Below are positions 1,841 through 15,770 of a DNA stretch of 64,000 nucleotides, one piece after another (position 1 is the first letter of the stretch; every line of letters starts with the position of its first letter). The notes below the pieces were generated by a model. It searched no databases. It saw nothing but the letters and a program-made list of their open reading frames with translations, and was not told the origin of the DNA. This DNA is from Moorella sp. E308F (lineage in GTDB: Bacteria > Bacillota > DSM-521 > Neomoorellales > Neomoorellaceae): contig NZ_BJKN01000002.1 of the NCBI RefSeq assembly GCF_006538365.1, forward strand, positions 523,119 through 587,118, in the 5' to 3' direction. The position numbers were made by a program, and so were the translations under genes.

Positions 1841-3859
1841 TTAAAGTTCCGCCGCAATGCGATCTGTCCACCTCGTGCCGGGGAGCCTCCGCTTTTCGAA
1901 AGAAGAATTGACCTCAAATCCCATCTCTTTCAAAAAACGCGACGGCCTGTTCCACGCCGTCCGGCCCCAGTTAGTCCTTTCGCGGCACCAGGTGACGTAT
2001 AGGCAATCCTTCGCGCGGGTCGCGCCTACGAAACAAAGGCGTCTCTCCTCTTCCAGCGCCGGGCCGTAGCCGCTCTGATAATGCGGCAGATAACCTTCCT
2101 CCGCGGCGACCAGAAAGACCGTGTGGAATTCCAGGCCTTTCGCCTTGTGCAAAGTCATCAGCCGCACCGCGTCTTTCCCGCCGCCGTCGTCGCTGTCGCC
2201 GGACGCCAGGGCGGCCCTTTCCAAAAGCTCCGCCACGCCGCCGCCGGAAGCGTCTATCTCCGCCGCCGCGGAAATGAGGGCGCCGACGTTGGCGACCCGC
2301 TCCTGGCCCTCTTCGGACCGATCTTTGGCCAGCTTCGCCATATAGCCGGTCGATTCGGCAGCATACATGCAGAGTTCGGCCGCAGGTTTCTTTTCCCTGA
2401 TGCCTGTTTCCAAAACCTCCAGGGTTTTTGCCAACCGGGCGAGAGACGAACGCGCCTTTTTACCGATACCAGGTTTTGCGGCCGCGCCCGATAGGGCTTC
2501 TGCCGGCGGGCGGCCGGCGAGAACGAGAGCCGCGACCTGGGCGGCGGTGGCTTCGCCCACGCCCGGCTGGAGGAAGCATATCCGACGCAGGGAAACGACG
2601 TCTTTCGGATTCACGGCTACCCGCAGATGGGCCAGGACGTCTTTTATTTCCCTGCGGCCCCAGAAACCCACGGAACCGACCACCACGTAGGGGACGCCGC
2701 GTTTCGCCAGCGCTTCCTCGTATGTCCAGCTCAAAGCGTTGACGCGGTAGAGCACCGCGAAGTCCGACCAGGAAAGGCCCTGGCCGCTGTGCAGGGCGGA
2801 AATTTTTTCCGCCAGGAATTCAGCTTCCGCGCGTTCGTCCGGGAAAGACAGGCATTGAGCCTCGCCGCCGTCCGGGCGGACAGGCAACAAGGTTTTTTCT
2901 TCGCGCCGGGTGTTGTGCCGGATAAGCCTGTCCGCCAGGGACGTCACCGCCGGCACGGAGCGGTAGTTTTTCTCCAGGGCGACTACTTTCGCTTCCGGGA
3001 AGTCTTCTTTAAAACGCAGGATGTTTTCGACGTCGGCGGCCCGCCAGCCGTAAATGCTCTGGTCGGGGTCGCCGACAGCGGTGACGTTGCGGCGCTTTTT
3101 TACCAATAACTGCAGCCATTCGTATTGCGCCCGGTTGGTGTCCTGGTACTCGTCGACCAGGACCCATTTCCAGATTTCCGCCCATTTCCGGGCCACGTCG
3201 GGCCTTTCCCGGAAGAGGCGGACGGCCTCAAACAACAGGTCGTCGAAGTCCAGGCCGTTTACTTTTTTTAACATCTCCTGGTACGCGGCGTAGACTTCCG
3301 GCACGGCGTCCTCGCAGCCGGAAACGGCTTCTGCCATTTTCTGAGACAGCAGGCTCCCTTCGCCGATCTTTTCCGCCATCCATTTTGAAAATTCGTCCGG
3401 CCCGACCAGACAGTTTTTCGCGAAGGATATCGCCTTTCCGGCGGCGGCCGCGTCCGGCGGGTCCAGGCGGAACTCTTTGGCGGCTTTCACCAGCAATTCG
3501 CGGCGTGCCTCTTCGTCGACGACGGCGAATTTAGGGTCTATTCCGATTTTCGTGCCGTCCCGGCGTAAGACGTAAAGGCACGCCGAGTGGAACGTCTGGG
3601 CGCGCACGCCGCCGGTTTCCCCCAGCAAATTCCTAATACGCTGCTTCATCTCGCCGGCCGCCTTGTTCGTGAAAGTGACGGCCAGGATTTCTTCCGGGCG
3701 GGCCAACCCCGACGTCACCAGCCACGCCACGCGGTGGGTCAGCACGCGCGTTTTGCCGCTCCCTGGCCCCGCCAATACTAAAAGGGGGCCGGGGCCGTGA
3801 GAGACGGCTTCTTTTTGGGCGTCGTTGAGGCCGGACAGAATTTTTGATTCGCGCGTCAT
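1841..3859 (-). CDS. UvrD/PcrA-type superfamily 1 DNA helicase
   Basis: This 672-residue protein is a 3'-5' SF1A helicase of the UvrD/Rep/PcrA family. In order it has a Q-motif (LNDAQKEAVSHG), Walker A (GPGSGKTRVLTHR), motif Ia region, Walker B (VLVDEYQDTNRAQY), motif III (GDPDQSIYGWRAA), motif IV (LEKNYRS), motif V (LMTLHKAKGLEFHTVFL) and motif VI (VGATRAKD). The length is slightly short of chromosomal PcrA (about 720) and the C-terminus lacks an obvious RNAP-interacting Tudor tail. It sits between a small DNA-replication-related gene and a family A polymerase, which suggests it unwinds DNA for replication of the integrated element rather than being the host repair helicase. Codon use is GC-rich like the rest of the element. 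Confidence 0.93.
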   Translation of the reverse strand: MTRESKILSGLNDAQKEAVSHGPGPLLVLAGPGSGKTRVLTHRVAWLVTSGLARPEEILAVTFTNKAAGEMKQRIRNLLGETGGVRAQTFHSACLYVLRRDGTKIGIDPKFAVVDEEARRELLVKAAKEFRLDPPDAAAAGKAISFAKNCLVGPDEFSKWMAEKIGEGSLLSQKMAEAVSGCEDAVPEVYAAYQEMLKKVNGLDFDDLLFEAVRLFRERPDVARKWAEIWKWVLVDEYQDTNRAQYEWLQLLVKKRRNVTAVGDPDQSIYGWRAADVENILRFKEDFPEAKVVALEKNYRSVPAVTSLADRLIRHNTRREEKTLLPVRPDGGEAQCLSFPDERAEAEFLAEKISALHSGQGLSWSDFAVLYRVNALSWTYEEALAKRGVPYVVVGSVGFWGRREIKDVLAHLRVAVNPKDVVSLRRICFLQPGVGEATAAQVAALVLAGRPPAEALSGAAAKPGIGKKARSSLARLAKTLEVLETGIREKKPAAELCMYAAESTGYMAKLAKDRSEEGQERVANVGALISAAAEIDASGGGVAELLERAALASGDSDDGGGKDAVRLMTLHKAKGLEFHTVFLVAAEEGYLPHYQSGYGPALEEERRLCFVGATRAKDCLYVTWCRERTNWGRTAWNRPSRFLKEMGFEVNSSFEKRRLPGTRWTDRIAAEL

Positions 3860-3874
3860 TTTCAGAACCTTCTT

Positions 3875-4381
3875 TCAATCTTTCTGCGGGATAGGGATAT
3901 TTACGGTTTCAGCCTTTACCGCCAAGCACCACTCCAGTGTACCGTTAAGCCTCAGCCGGACAGCGTTGCGGCTCCCTCTCCCGGTTGTCAATAGTGCACC
4001 TTTTTCCTTGAGACGTTCAACGCCGCCAGCGTAATCAAAACCTTTATCCTTAAAAGCCTTCCGCACGATAGAGGTGGGAATGGCGACGTACCGCACGCCG
4101 TCCTCCACGATAAGTTTGCCTTTCACCCAAGAAAGGTTTTCATTGCCTACCAGCCCCCCGATATATTTGATATTATCCACGACCACGGAGCGGAACACGT
4201 TTACGGCGTCGTAGGAATCAGGTTTTATGAGGCGGCGTTTTTTGGCTTTCTTATCTTTTTCTTCTGGGGGATTATATTTTAAATCGCCGTAAATGTAGGC
4301 GCGGCTGTTGAATTTTTTCTTGTATCGTTCCACCTTTTTGTCATCGAGATTACCGTGGATAAGGTCTAATAGAATTCCCAT
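3875..4381 (-). CDS. Small protein resembling the C-terminal domain of the primase-helicase
   Basis: This is a 168-residue protein. An RBS (AAGGGGATG) lies 7 nt before the ATG at 4381. Residues 1 to 70 are very basic (KKVERYKKKF, KKAKKRRL). From about residue 80 on it aligns by eye with the last 110 residues of the element's own primase-helicase: SWVKGKLIVEDGVRYVAI against RWVGKIVRRDGKKYVALY, then RKAFKDKG, LKEKGALL, and VRLRLNGTLEWCLAVKAE against SLRFGGGKREWCLLVDAE. I know no characterised family for it. The gene lies directly beside the mirror-symmetric AT-rich region and upstream of the helicase and polymerase genes. A basic stand-alone copy of a replication-protein domain next to the presumed origin could be an initiator or loader, but that is inference. 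Coding status is well supported. Confidence 0.75.
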   Translation of the reverse strand: MGILLDLIHGNLDDKKVERYKKKFNSRAYIYGDLKYNPPEEKDKKAKKRRLIKPDSYDAVNVFRSVVVDNIKYIGGLVGNENLSWVKGKLIVEDGVRYVAIPTSIVRKAFKDKGFDYAGGVERLKEKGALLTTGRGSRNAVRLRLNGTLEWCLAVKAETVNIPIPQKD

Positions 4382-4501: not shown

Positions 4502-4753
4502 TCTCTCTTGACAGAGGTCTGGGAAAATGTGGTTTTTTTAGTGAGAACGGATTTTCCTTGATTCTTCGTTCGGGCCAAAAAAATTACAAATTCTCCCTGA
4601 GAACGGTTTTTCCTTGATTTTACGTTGACAAAATTTTACTGGGAACAGATTTTTGATTTAAGATAGATAAACGAGGAAAAATCATAAAGGGTTAAACAAG
4701 ATTTTTCAACGGTTTTTAAATATGAGAACGGATTTTTAAAAAATAGCTCTAGG

Positions 4754-4895
4754 GTGTCATACCTAGATGAATTAAGATTTTACAAAGATTAATTCGTTCT
4801 CATTTTTATTTACGTATGACATCGTATGACATCCGTATGACACCCTTAAATGTTGATATACCTATAAAAACGCGATCTGTCATACCGTCATACCT
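4754..4895 (+). repeat. Left iteron group (CGTATGACA family)
   Basis: Six copies of CGTATGACA or its complement TGTCATACC occur here: one at 4754-4764, three nearly contiguous copies at 4813-4843, and two at 4877-4895. The triplet has a period of about 10 bp, one helical turn, as expected for protein-binding iterons. Confidence 0.75.
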
Positions 4896-5045
4896 AAAAA
4901 AAATTTTCCCTAAAGGGAGGAAAGAAAAAAATGCACGTTTTTTAAAAAGGCATTAAAATCCCTACTTATTAACTCGGATATTTTTGACTTTCTTTGACCA
5001 AAAACTCGTGCAAAAAAAAATCCCCTTTTAGGGAAAAAAAAATTT

Positions 5046-5190
5046 AGGTATGACGGTATGACAGATCGCCTCATCCTTAGAGTATCAAGGCTGGGGGGTG
5101 TCATACGGATGTCATACGGTGTCATACCAAAATGAACTTGAGAACATACTATCCCCTGTAAAACCTTAATTCATCTACGTATGACACCTA
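5046..5190 (-). repeat. Right iteron group (mirror copy)
   Basis: This holds the mirror image of the left group: two copies at 5046-5064, three at 5097-5128 and one at 5177-5190, in opposite orientation. Group sizes (2, 3, 1) and spacing follow the left side in reverse order. Confidence 0.75.
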
Positions 5191-5423
5191 AGAACATTTT
5201 ATTCGGGAGCCGTTCTCACCATCAAAAAACCCAAGAAAATCAAAAGGAAAATCAGGTTAAATTAAAATCTACTTTATCATTATTATTCAAAAATCCGTTC
5301 CCAGGAAAAACATTCCAACGTAAAATCAAGGAAAACCCGTTCCCAGGGAGAATTTGTTAATTTTTTAGCCCCGACGAAGAATCAAGCAAAATCCGTTCCC
5401 ACTTAACCCTCCTCCTTCCCGTC

Positions 5424-8400
5424 CTAAAGTTCCACCCCGTCTTCTATCCCGGTGTCGTTTTCAGACATCAAATCTATTTCTTCCGCCCACATATCCGCGT
5501 CGTCTTCCAATAAGGCTTCCGCATCGACTAAAAGGCACCATTCCCTTTTTCCTCCGCCGAACCTCAACGAAGTGACATTTTTGTGTTTCTCCTTCATCTT
5601 TTCCGGGACCCATACCAGCCCCGCGTTCTTCAACGCCTTGGCTGCCGTCTCGTACTCGACGTCCGCGTTCTTCTTCAAAGCGTCCCGAACGGCATTGGCG
5701 TATAAGGCTACATACTTTTTGCCGTCCCGGCGTACTATTTTCCCCACCCACCGGGGCGGCTTGCCTTCCGCTTCCCGTAAGCCGTCGATGAGCTCGCGGT
5801 TCTCGGCCACGAACGAGCGCAAGACGTCCAGCACCGTGGCCAGCAGCGCCCGCCCGCTGGTGTTTGTCACGACGTTTTCCCACGCCGCGTCCAGGGCGGC
5901 GGCCGTGATCTCCGTGGCCTTTTCCCCGTCTTCGCCCAGGGAGCGCAGCAGCAGTTCCAGCCCGGCGCCGCACGCGGCCGCCCGCTTGGCCAGGCGTTTC
6001 AGGGTCTGGTTTTTTTCCGACGAACCGTCCAGGGCGTTCCCCGTGGCCGGGGAAACCCTGTCGGTCACCCGGTCGAGGGCGTCTTTCCACCGCCGGTAAG
6101 TCGCCACAATAATTTTCCGCCGCGCGTCTTCGGGGAACGAGAGCAGCCACTGCACGTACCGCCGCCCGAGGTGGCCGTAGTCGGCGGCCAAATCTTTGGC
6201 GATCTGCTCCGCCTCGACGCGGAACTGTTCCCGCTTCGCCGGGAACAGCGGCGGGAACGACAGCACCCGGTCGAACACGCCCTGCCGCCCCCGCACGACG
6301 TCCAGGATCGACCGCTCGGCGCTCACGACCAGCACCGAATACCACCGCCGCGTCTTGCGGGAGCCGCCGCTCTTCGCCCCACGCTCCTTGCCCATGCCGA
6401 GGGCGAGCGAATACACTATTTCCGCGACGGCGTCGGCGTACCGCACCAGCTGGCTCTCGTCGATGTGGGCGGAAATGTCGCAGTGTACGGAAAACAGTAT
6501 CTCCGAATGCACCGTGGTCCGGTTGGCCGTCCTGATCATGTCGCCCAGGGTCGGCCTCCCCCAGAGGCCGGCGGGGAACATGTTGAGGGTGGTCTTGCCG
6601 CGGCCGCTCTCCGGGTCGGTCGATTCCACCACGAAGCCGCAGACGTCCGATTCCCCTTCTTCCACCAGGTAGCGTATCAAAGGCCCGGCCGCTCCGGCGC
6701 CCGTGAAGAAAGCCGCCAGGGGGTATTTCTCGAAGTATTTGAGGTACGTCCGCTTCTGGCCATCCAGGGTGCCGCGGGCCGTTATGGCCGCGAGCATCTG
6801 CTTTTCGCCGGCACCTATGCCGGACGACCACTCGCTCAAAGGGTGGTCCGATTCGGGCGCGTCGGCGGTTTCCCCCGCTTCGCCGTCCACCCGCCCGGCG
6901 GTCGTGAAGATGTCCCGCCCCACGGCAAACATTTCGCCCTTTATCCGCTCGCCCTGGGGCTTGTGCCAGCCGGAGCGCGCCACCAGGATTTTGACGGGGA
7001 GCGGGTGGTCGGGGTGGGTGAAGGTGTAGTCACGCAGCGCCCCCAGCCAGGTGATGACTTTCATGATGTTGGTGGAATCTACTGGCATCCCTAAATTTGC
7101 CAGGAAATCGACAGCTTTCGACACGTTGAAAAGCATGCCGCCGGCGGCCTGGATTTTGTTCCAACCGCCGTCTTTGTACCACCAGAGGTCGTATATCGTG
7201 TCTTCCCCCTGGTCGGCGGGGACCATTATCCCGGCCAGGGCCACGACGCACGCGATGACCGGATCGGCCTCGCTTTCCCCCGTTTCTTCGTCGAAAGTCT
7301 GGGTGCATATCTGCCCCAGGCTGTCGATCGTCCACCCTTCCGGCACGGGGAAATCGGCAAAGGGCGTCCCGGCGGCGGGCGGGAAGAGCTCGGCGATGGT
7401 TTTGACCTGCGGTTCGGGCTCCGGCTCTTCGGGTTCCGGCGGCCTCCGCGGCTCCTGCCGCTCCCGCGCCTGCGACAGGACCCTTCTGGCCCCGTCGAGT
7501 ATGTCCTTGTGGTACCGTCTGATCCCCGCTCTCTTGAGCCTGGCCTTCACCACCGGCTCACTCTTCAGCAGCCCCAGCAGGGCCGCCGCACCCAGGATCT
7601 GCCGCTCTATGTCGCCGCTGGCGAGCTCCCGTGCCGCGAACGCCTCGGCACCGGCGCCGACCGGCAGCCACGCCGGGGCGTGCTCGACGAGGGAACGGAA
7701 CCTGGCCGCGCCGTCTTCCCCGGCCCGTTTGTAGGCCACGAGGTAGTCGTCCAGCCCGACTTTTCCGTCTACGGCTTCCAGCTTCGGGAGGGTGATTATT
7801 TTGACCTCTTTTGCCCCTAAGCGGTACAGCTGCTCGGCCAGCTCCGGGAAAGCCGCCCAACGCTTGTGCCGCTGGTCGATGTCCGAATCGTAGACCAGGA
7901 CGACCCTCTGGCCGCCCCAGTCGCGCTTCAACCGGCCAAGCAGCGCCTCGTCCGGCGGCAATTGCTCCCCTACAGCACTGCGTTCGCGCCAGGAATCGAT
8001 GCCGGACACGCCGAAGCAGTTTATGCCGTTGTTAACGGCACAGAGGGCTTTCTTTTCGCCCTCGGTTATGACCACTTCCGGGGCGGTCATGTCGGCCCCC
8101 GGCGGCACGTAGAGGCGGCATCCGGCCCTGCGCGGCGAGACGTATTTCATGTCGCCCTTCGGCCGGTCGAGCCGCACCCGCACGAAGCCGTCCGGCTCTC
8201 CGGGGTACGGTATGGCGATACCTCCGCTCTCGACGTGCACGCCGGTCATGCGGCTCGCCTCTTCGGCCGTCACCCAGTAAAGCCCGGCGGCGTCGGCCAG
8301 GGCCGGAGGTATGTCGGATTCAGTCATGAGCTTGTGCTTTATGGCATCAGGCAGCGTCCGGCGAGGGGCACCGACCGGGGTGTCGCCGCTGTCACGGATG

Positions 8401-8471
8401 ACAGTATTTGGATTGGAAGGCGTTTCGATACCACCAGTATTTGGATTGCTGTTGTTCGGGTAATCAGGCAT
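5424..8471 (-). CDS. TOPRIM-DUF927 primase-helicase
   Basis: A 1015-residue replication protein. Residues about 40-270 form a DUF3854/TOPRIM-like domain (VVITEGEKKALC with the catalytic Glu near 130, and VLVYDSDIDQRHKRW near 190). A Pro/Glu-rich linker lies around 335-360. Residues about 365-830 match the DUF927 ATPase family. Its P-loop variant is SGRGKTTLNMF (near 595) and its Walker B-like segment is AHIDESQL. A C-terminal domain (about 895-990) has a relative encoded as a separate small gene across the AT-rich region. Proteins of this build act as primase-helicases in phages, plasmids and ICEs. It probably opens and primes the adjacent origin. Transcription runs leftward into the origin-like DNA. 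Domain naming is from recalled family features, not from a search. Confidence 0.85.
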   Translation of the reverse strand: MPDYPNNSNPNTGGIETPSNPNTVIRDSGDTPVGAPRRTLPDAIKHKLMTESDIPPALADAAGLYWVTAEEASRMTGVHVESGGIAIPYPGEPDGFVRVRLDRPKGDMKYVSPRRAGCRLYVPPGADMTAPEVVITEGEKKALCAVNNGINCFGVSGIDSWRERSAVGEQLPPDEALLGRLKRDWGGQRVVLVYDSDIDQRHKRWAAFPELAEQLYRLGAKEVKIITLPKLEAVDGKVGLDDYLVAYKRAGEDGAARFRSLVEHAPAWLPVGAGAEAFAARELASGDIERQILGAAALLGLLKSEPVVKARLKRAGIRRYHKDILDGARRVLSQARERQEPRRPPEPEEPEPEPQVKTIAELFPPAAGTPFADFPVPEGWTIDSLGQICTQTFDEETGESEADPVIACVVALAGIMVPADQGEDTIYDLWWYKDGGWNKIQAAGGMLFNVSKAVDFLANLGMPVDSTNIMKVITWLGALRDYTFTHPDHPLPVKILVARSGWHKPQGERIKGEMFAVGRDIFTTAGRVDGEAGETADAPESDHPLSEWSSGIGAGEKQMLAAITARGTLDGQKRTYLKYFEKYPLAAFFTGAGAAGPLIRYLVEEGESDVCGFVVESTDPESGRGKTTLNMFPAGLWGRPTLGDMIRTANRTTVHSEILFSVHCDISAHIDESQLVRYADAVAEIVYSLALGMGKERGAKSGGSRKTRRWYSVLVVSAERSILDVVRGRQGVFDRVLSFPPLFPAKREQFRVEAEQIAKDLAADYGHLGRRYVQWLLSFPEDARRKIIVATYRRWKDALDRVTDRVSPATGNALDGSSEKNQTLKRLAKRAAACGAGLELLLRSLGEDGEKATEITAAALDAAWENVVTNTSGRALLATVLDVLRSFVAENRELIDGLREAEGKPPRWVGKIVRRDGKKYVALYANAVRDALKKNADVEYETAAKALKNAGLVWVPEKMKEKHKNVTSLRFGGGKREWCLLVDAEALLEDDADMWAEEIDLMSENDTGIEDGVEL

Positions 8472-8835: not shown

Positions 8836-9072
8836 ATGCGTGAAACTGTTATTTGGACGATCTCCCTCCCTCCCCAGATAGCTCAAAAGGCGATGGAAAC
8901 CGCCAAGAGAGAAAACCGTACTCGCAGCGAGCTTGTGAGGGAAGCTTTGCGCCGGTATATGGCGGCAACGGAATGGGAACGGGCGCAGGCCAAAGTTTCG
9001 CTCAGGGCCAGGGAAATAGGTATTTTAAACGATGCTGACGTTGAAAATGTAATTGACGAAATAAGGAAATAA
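8836..9072 (+). CDS. Ribbon-helix-helix (CopG-type) antitoxin
   Basis: This 78-residue protein starts at an ATG preceded by AGAGGTGACC. The N-terminus (TVIWTISLPPQIAQKAMETAK followed by NRTRSELVREALRRYM) is a ribbon-helix-helix DNA-binding fold: a beta strand, then two helices with the usual RSELVREAL pattern. The remaining 30 residues would bind the toxin. It is followed after 3 bp by a PIN-domain toxin gene, so the two form a VapBC-like module. It runs opposite to the surrounding genes and has its own promoter with a repeat operator, which fits autoregulation. Such modules stabilise mobile elements. Confidence 0.88.
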   Translation: MRETVIWTISLPPQIAQKAMETAKRENRTRSELVREALRRYMAATEWERAQAKVSLRAREIGILNDADVENVIDEIRK

Positions 9073-9075
9073 CCT

Positions 9076-9504
9076 ATGAGAGCGACGTTGGACACTAACG
9101 TATTGATATCCGCACTTATTTTTCCGGGTGGCATTCCTGATCAAATTTTTAGGGCCGCCTTAGAAGGAAAGTATGAGCTTGTGATGAGCCCTTTCATATT
9201 ACAAGAATTTGCCCGTATACTCCAGCAAAAATTTAAGTATTCGGAAGACGAAGCGATGAGCGTAACAGTATTGGTGCGAGATGCGGCTTCGTTAATTATA
9301 GAGCCGAAGACAATTCCGAAATTGGTCGCTTCTAAAGATGACGACAATCATATTTTGGCCTGTGCTCAAGCGGCCAACGTCGATTACCTCGTGACTGGAG
9401 ATATGAAGCACATATACCCATTGGGAACAATAGGCAATACTAAAATTGTTACGCCCGCTGAATTTCTGCGAGAATTGGAAAAAAGCAAACACCCGGACAG
9501 TTGA
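9076..9504 (+). CDS. PIN-domain toxin (putative ribonuclease)
   Basis: A 142-residue PIN-domain protein of the COG1569 type. The N-terminal acidic motif is LDTNVLISAL (Asp 5). Further conserved acids appear in FILQEFARIL (Glu), KDDDNHILACA and YLVTGDMKHI. These acids bind Mg2+ or Mn2+ in PIN ribonucleases. The C-terminus KIVTPAEFLREL is typical of the family. It starts 3 bp after the RHH antitoxin gene, so translation is probably coupled. The predicted role is a VapC-like toxin that cleaves RNA when the antitoxin is lost, stabilising the element. The target RNA cannot be told from sequence. Confidence 0.88.
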   Translation: MRATLDTNVLISALIFPGGIPDQIFRAALEGKYELVMSPFILQEFARILQQKFKYSEDEAMSVTVLVRDAASLIIEPKTIPKLVASKDDDNHILACAQAANVDYLVTGDMKHIYPLGTIGNTKIVTPAEFLRELEKSKHPDS

Positions 9505-12213: not shown

Positions 12214-12915
12214 TTATGTTGTTAGGTTATCTTTAGGAATAGAAATGACATAAACCCGACGTGATTTTTGCATCAATGCGTCCCAGTATGTAGAACTATA
12301 TCGATGTCGCTCACCTGGCTTAAGCCAGCCTTTCGTTTTCCAAAATTTTAATACCGCCCGACGTTCAGCTTCGTTCTTAATCCTTATATCCGCAAAAAAC
12401 TTCGCGAAAGCTGCCACGTAAACTATAACTTTTATTTCTTCGTTTGAGCTTTCATCTAACTGACCCCAGAATCCTTCATCAAATTCTTTCTTGTTAACAA
12501 ATACCCATTCGCAAAATTTCTCATAAATAGAGATCGCTTCTGGGTCAATCCCGGTCTCTCCCTCTTCATACGAACGGATATTTTGGATTAATTCCCTCCA
12601 TCGGGTGGCTAGAATCTCATCAAAATACGCTCCCAGTTTTTTAGCGTTGGTCCATACCCCCGCCATCGCCACTGCGCGAGCAATCCCCAGCCCTCCTTCA
12701 TGCACGGGGCTGCGGACTTCGCGGTTTATTGGCTCCCCAATTTGGGCAACATACCAATATCGGTCGCGTTCGCGATCTACTTCGAGCGCGGTAATTTCTA
12801 CCGAGACCGGGCAGACGCATTGTCGGTTGCCGTCTTCGTCTTCTATCCAGATGCCATTTGTTTCTTTAGCATTAAGAGTATCGATATTGTAGGAGTTTTC
12901 AGCGAGGGTTTCCAT
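12214..12915 (-). CDS. Hypothetical protein, possibly related to part of DUF927 proteins
   Basis: The start is set at the ATG at 12915, which has GGGAGG 9 nt upstream; an in-frame ATG 10 codons earlier lacks an RBS. The product is 233 residues. The N-terminal part (GIWIEDEDGNRQCVCPVSVE, then LEVDRERDRYWYVAQI) resembles the opening beta-rich segment of DUF927 proteins as I remember it. The C-terminus (FWKTKGWLKPGERHRYSS) looks like a winged-helix/DUF927 tail. The ATPase core is absent. Codon use is closer to AT-balanced than in the replication genes. It sits between the HTH regulator and the hypothetical gene run. The family link is tentative. Confidence 0.55.
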   Translation of the reverse strand: METLAENSYNIDTLNAKETNGIWIEDEDGNRQCVCPVSVEITALEVDRERDRYWYVAQIGEPINREVRSPVHEGGLGIARAVAMAGVWTNAKKLGAYFDEILATRWRELIQNIRSYEEGETGIDPEAISIYEKFCEWVFVNKKEFDEGFWGQLDESSNEEIKVIVYVAAFAKFFADIRIKNEAERRAVLKFWKTKGWLKPGERHRYSSTYWDALMQKSRRVYVISIPKDNLTT

Positions 12916-12937
12916 CAATAGATGCCTCCCTAAAAAC

Positions 12938-13168
12938 TTAAGCAATATTTTCCTTGTGTATTTCGTTTGAAGGAGAATTAATGTTTGAGAAAAGATCTTC
13001 TACAGAAGAATTAAAGAATGCGGCTATACGCAAAGCTAATGCTAGAGATGGATCGGTAGTGCCGCATTCAATTTTGCAATAAGCTGGTCTACTAATATTT
13101 AAAGCATTAGCTACCTCTTCTTGAGTAAGGTGAGCTTCTTTCCTTTTATTTCGTAGAGCGTATCGCAT
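12938..13168 (-). CDS. Small XRE-family HTH regulator
   Basis: The start is at the ATG at 13168 (RYALRNKRKE), with GGGAGGGG 5 nt upstream. The product is 76 residues, almost only a helix-turn-helix domain: LRNKRKEAHLTQEEVANALN, then ISRPAYCKIECGTTDPSLALALRIAAFF. This is the classic Cro/C1-type fold with the final LFSNIN tail. It is transcribed away from a second HTH gene, from a strong promoter (13191-13220). In ICEBs1- and lambda-like systems such divergent HTH pairs control the choice between integration and excision. It probably acts as a Cro-like or excision-promoting regulator; which of the two pair members is the repressor is inferred from its neighbours. Confidence 0.85.
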   Translation of the reverse strand: MRYALRNKRKEAHLTQEEVANALNISRPAYCKIECGTTDPSLALALRIAAFFNSSVEDLFSNINSPSNEIHKENIA

Positions 13169-14299: not shown

Positions 14300-14347
14300 G
14301 CTTGAAGGTAAATTGAATTAATTGGTGTGCAGAGGGGAGAACCTGAA

Positions 14348-15559
14348 TTGGCAAGAAAACGCGGCAACAACGAAGGCACTATAAGCAAGCGCAAGGACGG
14401 GAGGTGGTGCGCGGCAATTACTGTGGGAAGAACAGAGGAAGGTAAGCAAAAAAGGATTTTTTTCTATGGTAAAACCAGGCAAGAAGTCGCTGATAAGTTG
14501 GCAAAAGCCTTAAATGATATTAAGCAGGGAACCTTCGTAGAACCGGATAAGTTAACTGTAGGGGAATGGCTGGATACTTGGCTTAATGAATACGTAAAGC
14601 CTCATGTTCGACCCACGACCTGGGGAGGGTATGAATATATTGTTCGCCAGCATCTTAAACCGGCTTTAGGAAAAATACGTTTGAAAGATTTACGGCCGGA
14701 CCATTTACAAAAGCTGTATAATGAAAAGCTGGCGGGCGGGCGTGTTGACGGCCAGGGGCAGCTTTCTAACCGAACGGTGCGGCTTATGCATGTAGTTATA
14801 CATGCAGCCCTCAAACAGGCTATGAAGAATCAATTAGTGATTCGCAATGTGGCCGACGCTACTAAACCGCCAAGTTTAAAGAAAAAAGAAATTCGGGTGC
14901 TTTCCCCCGAAGAACAGGCCAGGTTTATAAGCATTTTAAAGGATGATCGGTTAGGGGCGGCTTTCCTTTTGGATCTGGCCACCGGCTTGCGGCGTGGCGA
15001 ACTTTTAGGGTTGCGCTGGCGGGACGTAAATCTCGAAGAAGGGACCATCACTATAAACCAGTCCTTGGTTGAAGTCAGGACCGGTAACGCAGAAGGTAAA
15101 AAGACTATGCTTATGTTCCAGGAGCCAAAGACCAAACAAAGCAAGCGGACGATACCAATTCCTAAAAGTATCTTGACAGAACTAAAAGCCCATAAGATCC
15201 GGCAGGATCATGAGAAATCGCAGGCAGGCCCGAAGTACCAAGATAACGATTTAGTTTTTGCCACGGCTGAAGGGAAGCCGATTAATCCTCGAAACTTTAA
15301 TCGTAGTTTCTACCGATTGGTAAAGAAGGCCGGACTACCGCCTATAAATCCCCACGCTTTGAGGCATACCTTTGCCACCAGGTTGTTGGAAGCTGACGAA
15401 CATCCTAAAGTAGTACAGGACCTACTGGGCCATTCCCAAATCAGCCTGACGTTGGATACTTATTCCCACGCGAGCATGGATCTGAAACGTCGGGCGGCCG
15501 AAAAACTTGATAAGATCCTAGAGGTAAAGAAAAATTCCTCCGACGAAACGGAGGAATAG
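14348..15559 (+). CDS. int: Tyrosine integrase (phage/ICE type)
   Basis: A tyrosine recombinase of about 403 residues. The TTG at 14348 is preferred because AGAGGGGAGA lies 8 nt upstream; a GTG at 14327 has no RBS. The N-terminus holds an arm-binding domain (NNEGTISKRKDGRWCAAI, then KTRQEVADKL) and a SAM-like core-binding domain (TVGEWLDTWLNEYVKPHV). The catalytic domain shows the first Arg in ATGLRRGELLGLRW, H-x-x-R in HALRHTFATRL, the GHS motif in LLGHSQISLTLDTYSH and the nucleophilic Tyr within TLDTYSH. It is the last gene of the element and its 3' end faces a tRNA-Lys gene, the probable attachment site. An intrinsic terminator follows. Confidence 0.95.
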   Translation: MARKRGNNEGTISKRKDGRWCAAITVGRTEEGKQKRIFFYGKTRQEVADKLAKALNDIKQGTFVEPDKLTVGEWLDTWLNEYVKPHVRPTTWGGYEYIVRQHLKPALGKIRLKDLRPDHLQKLYNEKLAGGRVDGQGQLSNRTVRLMHVVIHAALKQAMKNQLVIRNVADATKPPSLKKKEIRVLSPEEQARFISILKDDRLGAAFLLDLATGLRRGELLGLRWRDVNLEEGTITINQSLVEVRTGNAEGKKTMLMFQEPKTKQSKRTIPIPKSILTELKAHKIRQDHEKSQAGPKYQDNDLVFATAEGKPINPRNFNRSFYRLVKKAGLPPINPHALRHTFATRLLEADEHPKVVQDLLGHSQISLTLDTYSHASMDLKRRAAEKLDKILEVKKNSSDETEE

Positions 15560-15624: not shown

Positions 15625-15689
15625 GGTAGTAGTAGGGTAGTAGTAAATCGCTTTTTCGTGGTACCCTCCTAAACCCGCGAACCCTTGAT

Positions 15690-15697
<8 letters not shown>
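15625..15697 (+). repeat. Tandem repeat with CCTTGATTTT cap at the element end (site C)
   Basis: GGTAGTAGTA occurs twice (15625-15634, 15636-15645). ACCCTTGATTTTCTTGG (15681-15697) follows 36 bp later; its last bases are the complement of the tRNA-Lys CCA end. The same cap sequence appears at sites A and B inside the element. Here it touches the presumed attachment site. Confidence 0.7.

Positions 15698-15770
<73 letters not shown>

Follow-up and report, generated by a model that had tools for sequence, protein, structure and literature searches.

The SaPIbov1 origin, the subject of a 2012 paper in Plasmid, is reported to carry two iteron sets placed symmetrically about an AT-rich region, the melting of which requires both sides to be bound. 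According to a published account, the origins of PICIs always have two iteron sets around an AT-rich region, and a pri-rep-ori segment supports plasmid replication (PMC6092414). In SaPI Rep the C-terminal domain recognises the origin, which directly follows rep (PMC7581432). Cch contains DUF927 and is related to SaPIbov1 Rep, while for Cch2, which has a helicase of another family, a putative origin with three short direct repeats lies directly 3′ of the helicase gene (PMC7581432).

The region described here lies within a window of 64,000 nucleotides from Moorella sp. E308F, the whole stretch of DNA analysed, and judged from sequence comparison is very probably the replication origin of a 181-kb integrated element, following the PICI/SaPI layout but enlarged to carry two box families. 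A sequence-only reading had proposed a replication origin of an undescribed type. That it is an origin is strongly supported, with the layout recurring 3′ of homologous primase-helicases and the putative initiator homologous to SaPI Rep/Cch. The type itself is not undescribed: for PICIs and SaPIs, an AT-rich core with an iteron set on each side, placed directly 3′ of rep, has already been published. The genes and element features of the window referred to below are:

4537..5406, no strand: whole mirror-symmetric region, the proposed ori, an inverted repeat 71-74% identical between arms
5424..8471, minus strand: primase-helicase of 1015 aa, the proposed initiator (Rep), with DUF3854, a DUF927 helicase and a C-terminal winged-helix-like domain
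3875..4381, minus strand: 168-aa stand-alone paralogue of the initiator C-terminal domain, a proposed second origin-binding protein
1841..3859, minus strand: UvrD-like helicase of the replication module (PF00580, E 5e-82)
14327..15559, plus strand: tyrosine integrase of the element (PF00589, E 1.6e-31)
15689..15739, plus strand: attR core at the 3′ end of tRNA-Lys, 98% identical to attL over 51 bp

The element (G000:C2:357918-538857) is integrated at tRNA-Lys, and its size of ~180.9 kb follows from the positions of this attR and of the attL copy (G000:C2:357918-357968) 181 kb to its left; the flanks match the chromosome of a relative (G004). Its cargo includes a TcpF/VirB4-like ATPase, type IV pilus-like genes, ParA/ParB-like proteins, a DnaN clamp, SbcCD-like proteins, a ribonucleotide reductase with an intein-like segment, an A-family polymerase and five tRNA genes, with no phage structural genes among the proteins sampled. 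The element is provisionally classed as integrative, self-replicating and probably of conjugative type, and at ~180.9 kb it is not the small phage-dependent island (~15 kb) that defines a PICI. Three 378-aa proteins of the element (L035:10592-11728, L003:1238-2374, L047:2846-3982) share a common start, MSNATSSLKETRNYKFRLYPNKEQ, and are probably of TnpB/IS605 type. Within the window, 8836-9504 encodes an RHH (CopG) protein and then a PIN-domain protein, likely a toxin-antitoxin pair adjoining the primase-helicase gene, and a 243-aa protein (12214-12945) that weakly matches the helix-turn-helix domain of Cch (PF18662) may be related to the replication module as well.

On the minus strand the gene order is primase-helicase, the mirrored region, the 168-aa gene, the UvrD-like helicase and an A-family DNA polymerase, which begins at 1815 and extends past the window edge. 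The region fills the intergenic DNA immediately 3′ of the primase-helicase gene, whose stop lies at 5424, the region itself ending at 5406. The placement between a primase-helicase gene and the helicase/polymerase genes given earlier therefore stands on the first side and needs amending on the second, where the 168-aa gene intervenes before UvrD.

The whole region is a single imperfect inverted repeat of ~870 bp centred at 4970.5-4971.5. In an ungapped match over ±450 bp the palindrome centre at 4970.5 was the strongest in the 64-kb window (52% against a mean of 25%, SD 2.4%, or 11 SD above the mean), and gapped local alignment of the two halves scored 177, where 500 dinucleotide shuffles gave 12.2 ± 1.5 and never exceeded 18. 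The AT-rich mirror structure around one centre near 4972 that had been read from the letters is thus borne out. Comparison of the region with its own reverse complement, proposed at the same time as a check, detected the inverted repeat by BLAST of the genome (870 bp, 71%, E 3e-118), and gapped arm-to-arm identity was 74% (331/447 positions); BLAST found no further copy elsewhere in the genome. Between the arms the boxes are 91% identical and the spacers 68%, with all gaps in the spacers, the 91% flattering the boxes because the set was picked partly for being repeated. The boxes and the core are arranged as follows:

4543..4570, plus strand: outer box 1 left, GAGAACGGATTTT with CCTTGATTCTTCGTT
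4599..4626, plus strand: outer box 2 left, GAGAACGGTTTTT with CCTTGATTTTACGTT
4641..4653, plus strand: outer box 3 left, GGGAACAGATTTT
4724..4736, plus strand: outer box 4 left, GAGAACGGATTTT
4755..4763, minus strand: inner iteron 1 left, GGTATGACA
4813..4842, plus strand: inner iterons 2-4 left, CGTATGACA at 4813, 4823 and 4834
4878..4894, minus strand: inner tandem iteron pair left, 8 bp apart (4878, 4886)
4895..5046, no strand: AT-rich core, the proposed melting site, GC ~0.29, flanked by the innermost GTATGAC sites
5047..5063, plus strand: inner tandem iteron pair right, 8 bp apart (5047, 5055)
5099..5128, minus strand: inner iterons right at 5099, 5110 and 5120
5178..5186, plus strand: inner iteron right, outermost, CGTATGACA
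5210..5217, minus strand: outer box 4 right, GAGAACGG
5290..5302, minus strand: outer box 3 right, GGGAACGGATTTT
5317..5344, minus strand: outer box 2 right, GGGAACGGGTTTT with CCTTGATTTTACGTT
5373..5400, minus strand: outer box 1 right, GGGAACGGATTTT with GCTTGATTCTTCGTC

The inner family, GTATGAC, has 12 sites, six per arm, all six pairs being mirrored and in opposite orientation across the core at offsets from 4971.5 of -212.5/+210.5, -154.5/+152.5, -144.5/+142.5, -133.5/+131.5, -89.5/+87.5 and -81.5/+79.5. These positions confirm the 1-3-2 grouping on the left and 2-3-1 on the right that had been described from the sequence. Exact copies of GTATGACA occur ten times in 185 kb, all ten inside the region. 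In the outer family, G(A/G)GAACGG (GAGAACGG), pairs stand at exactly ±422.5, ±366.5 and ±324.5 from the same point, with a fourth pair at 4724 and 5210, and the mirrored distances of both families agree within 2 bp. GRGAACGG alone is not specific to the region, with 27 copies elsewhere in the 185 kb. The sequence-only reading had each of these boxes followed by a block; the boxes are there, and a CCTTGATT-like block trails only the two outermost on each side (positions 5373-5387 read GCTTGATTC), no such block following those at 4641, 4724, 5290 and 5210. Its description of a double-iteron region holds, two mirrored families being real and unusual among the relatives examined. With the main iteron masked, 120 inverted 9-mer matches were left in the region compared with at most 20 in any of 18 relatives, and in none of these 18 was there a second box family comparable to GAGAACGG.

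The gap separating the innermost GTATGAC sites is 154 bp with a GC of 0.29, and the core at 4895-5046 has a mean -dG of 1.20 against 1.49 element-wide. In the DNA stability calculation the region is unstable, the minimum of the element lying elsewhere. The AT-rich core is broad, and less stable sites exist in the element. Cumulative GC skew declines monotonically across the whole element, with no switch seen at the region or opposite it; this fits mostly passive replication within the chromosome, or a leftward fork, and is uninformative on fork direction. It is the mirror symmetry, and not the GC skew, that makes symmetric, bidirectional initiation plausible.

No close DNA relative of the region was found in 60 relatives, and degenerate-pattern scans of viral and genome contigs, made together with the primase, gave no match; position rather than sequence was therefore compared. 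Inverted 8-mers were counted in the 600 bp 3′ of the DUF927 gene and set against dinucleotide shuffles, with a threshold of z>4. An excess was present in the 3′ flanks of 17/24 relatives (effective n being slightly lower, as L085 and L086 are near-identical) and in 6/176 control 3′ flanks (Fisher p 1.5e-14), the controls coming from other genes in these loci and in the element. The 5′ flanks of the relatives' initiator genes gave 0/23, and a clear signal was absent from the 3′ flanks of 7/24 relatives. The search for the layout in related elements suggested by the sequence-only reading was thus answered among distant relatives, there being no close kin found. Where the layout recurs, mirrored iterons surround a usually AT-rich core, the iteron sequence being unrelated each time (TGTCTCCACTTTGTC in L034, TGTTCCCACT in L027, TGTTCCCC in L029, AGTGGTACA in L030, GGTTACC in L026, TATCGGGGGTA in L024 and CGGGACA in L084), and many loci share fine detail, with iterons paired in tandem at a spacing of 8-9 bp, cores mostly of 80-115 bp and orientation reversed across them.

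The same layout is found in Faecalibacterium phage FP_Epona, Anaerostipes phage AC844P1 and Ruminococcus phage phiRg507T2_3, gut phages in which mirrored iterons lie 3′ of the primase/helicase gene (L088 5783-6100, L089 5369-5688 and L090 5200-5420); these regions carry no origin annotation and are likely to be the replication origins of the three phages. That the mirrored layout keeps its position while its sequences are unrelated suggests that the layout itself is under selection, and links it to the initiator family. Since its carriers include a 181-kb element, ordinary phages and many distant genomes within one phylum, the layout appears to belong to the DUF927 initiator family and not to satellites.

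The 1015-aa primase-helicase matches PF12965 and PF06048, as well as phrog_8841, and its DUF3854 domain is TOPRIM-like. The helicase portion hits the model of SCCmec Cch1 with E 6.6e-12, far below the family cut-off, and among solved structures it matches Cch (5dgk) at E 3.4e-9 and SaPIbov1 Rep (8tch) at E 5.6e-4. A model of its last 175 residues (mean pLDDT 67, from a two-row alignment) had as best fold match residues 453-561 of SaPIbov1 Rep (8tch; Z 10.8, 2.7 Å over 105 residues), followed by Cch (5dgk, Z 9.9) and then winged-helix proteins including TcpK (Z 8.4). By sequence the putative initiator is homologous to Cch and SaPIbov1 Rep, and its C-terminal fold, as modelled, is alike. The 168-aa protein is 37% identical to the initiator C-terminus over 107 aa (E 8.5e-7; tblastn E 6e-8), and a profile of relatives' C-termini, built with both window proteins excluded, finds it at 27.7 bits. 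Among 27 loci there was no convincing stand-alone paralogue of the initiator C-terminus near the other origins. A candidate in L077 proved to match through a mere 21-residue repeat, and a 213-aa protein across the origin in L024, considered as a counterpart, showed no homology to the 168-aa protein.

The most serious rival is that the region is an origin of transfer, with the 168-aa protein a TcpK-like relaxosome accessory and the boxes its binding sites. The 168-aa model, of low confidence (pLDDT 61), is about as similar to Cch and SaPI Rep as to TcpK, and its fit to TcpK of pCW3 is no worse than that to Cch/SaPI Rep (E 1.8e-3 vs 3.8e-3). TcpK binds tandem GGAACTTTA boxes in oriT (PMC6137059), which bear a loose likeness to GGGAACGGATTTT, and the element encodes the TcpF/VirB4-like ATPase. 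That gene is, however, ~70 kb distant, TraD-type coupling-protein matches are on other contigs only, and the 168-aa sequence is a paralogue of the C-terminus of the adjacent initiator. An oriT would also leave the mirrored GTATGAC family unexplained, and many elements have the layout 3′ of their initiator, as do phages. Transfer is a highly improbable function for this region.

The remaining possibilities are weaker still. That the region regulates transcription of the replication genes and is not an origin would suit its position upstream of the 168-aa and UvrD genes, but mirror symmetry is not needed for such control because the flanking genes run the same way, and the pattern is in the 3′ flanks of the relatives' initiator genes and absent from their 5′ flanks; we consider this very improbable. 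A partition site (centromere) for the ParB-like protein is less probable again: the element encodes ParA- and ParB-like proteins and iteron arrays can be centromeres, but the ParB-like gene is more than 70 kb off, away from the site and outside the parAB adjacency expected, and across elements and phages the layout goes with the primase-helicase gene and has no such tie to par genes. Equally hard to credit is a functionless inverted duplication or foldback (MITE-like) insertion with the symmetry as its relic, for which one long inverted repeat with a single centre and no copy in close relatives could be cited; against it the boxes are conserved over the spacers, there is no second copy in the genome, and the layout recurs at the same place with unrelated sequences. 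The centromere, foldback and promoter readings are all disfavoured because the layout is tied to the 3′ end of the initiator gene. Transposon ends were also weighed and ranked low.

If the region is an origin, the primase-helicase would, after excision of the element, bind the mirrored GTATGAC sites through its C-terminal winged-helix domain, one initiator hexamer assembling on each side so that two stand opposed with the AT-rich core between them. Occupation of both arms would strain and melt the core, and two helicases would load head to head and depart in opposite directions, the fused TOPRIM-type primase domain priming both forks, to which the A-family polymerase, clamp and UvrD helicase of the element would be available. 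The 168-aa protein, a freed binding domain lacking the helicase, may occupy the outer GAGAACGG boxes and aid or limit assembly of the initiation complex. Of the elements examined, this one alone has an additional box family, and it alone has an additional copy of the binding domain; this co-occurrence in a single element suggests that the 168-aa protein serves the outer boxes. A two-protein origin, in which the full initiator takes the inner GTATGAC sites and its helicase-less paralogue the mirrored GAGAACGG array to switch or limit firing, is thus a real possibility, though one held tentatively and at somewhat less than even chances.

Such an origin would represent a duplicated-and-diverged origin-recognition pair inside one mirror origin, and the two-family form with its spare binding domain would offer a test case for origin regulation. 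The layout rule would help to locate origins in many uncharacterised phages and islands, with the relatives providing a panel of iteron-domain pairs for decoding how the binding domain reads its site.

Among the systems compared, phage P4 alpha is alike in combining primase, helicase and origin binding in one protein and in the use of iterons, with no match to alpha in the searches made. The P4 ori requires a second, distant site (crr), two separate sites in contrast to the one compact mirrored region here. The TcpK-oriT system of pCW3 shares a winged-helix fold near that of the 168-aa model and boxes starting GGAAC (PMC6137059), but its function is that of an oriT and TcpK is no paralogue of an initiator. 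The SCCmec Cch/Cch2 modules are closer, with a DUF927 helicase in Cch (5dgk), an A-family polymerase in the module and, for Cch2, the putative origin directly downstream of the helicase gene, the three short direct repeats of the latter contrasting with 12 mirrored inner iterons, outer boxes and a fused primase in the Moorella element. The PICI/SaPI origins likewise begin right after the 3′ end of the initiator gene and have an AT-rich region between two iteron sets, and SaPIbov1 Rep is a homologous initiator of like C-terminal fold. The Moorella region differs from them in its length of 870 bp and in the fusion of primase to helicase, and what is new is its host, a 181-kb element that is neither PICI nor satellite, together with the second outer box family and the stand-alone paralogue of the binding domain encoded across the origin.
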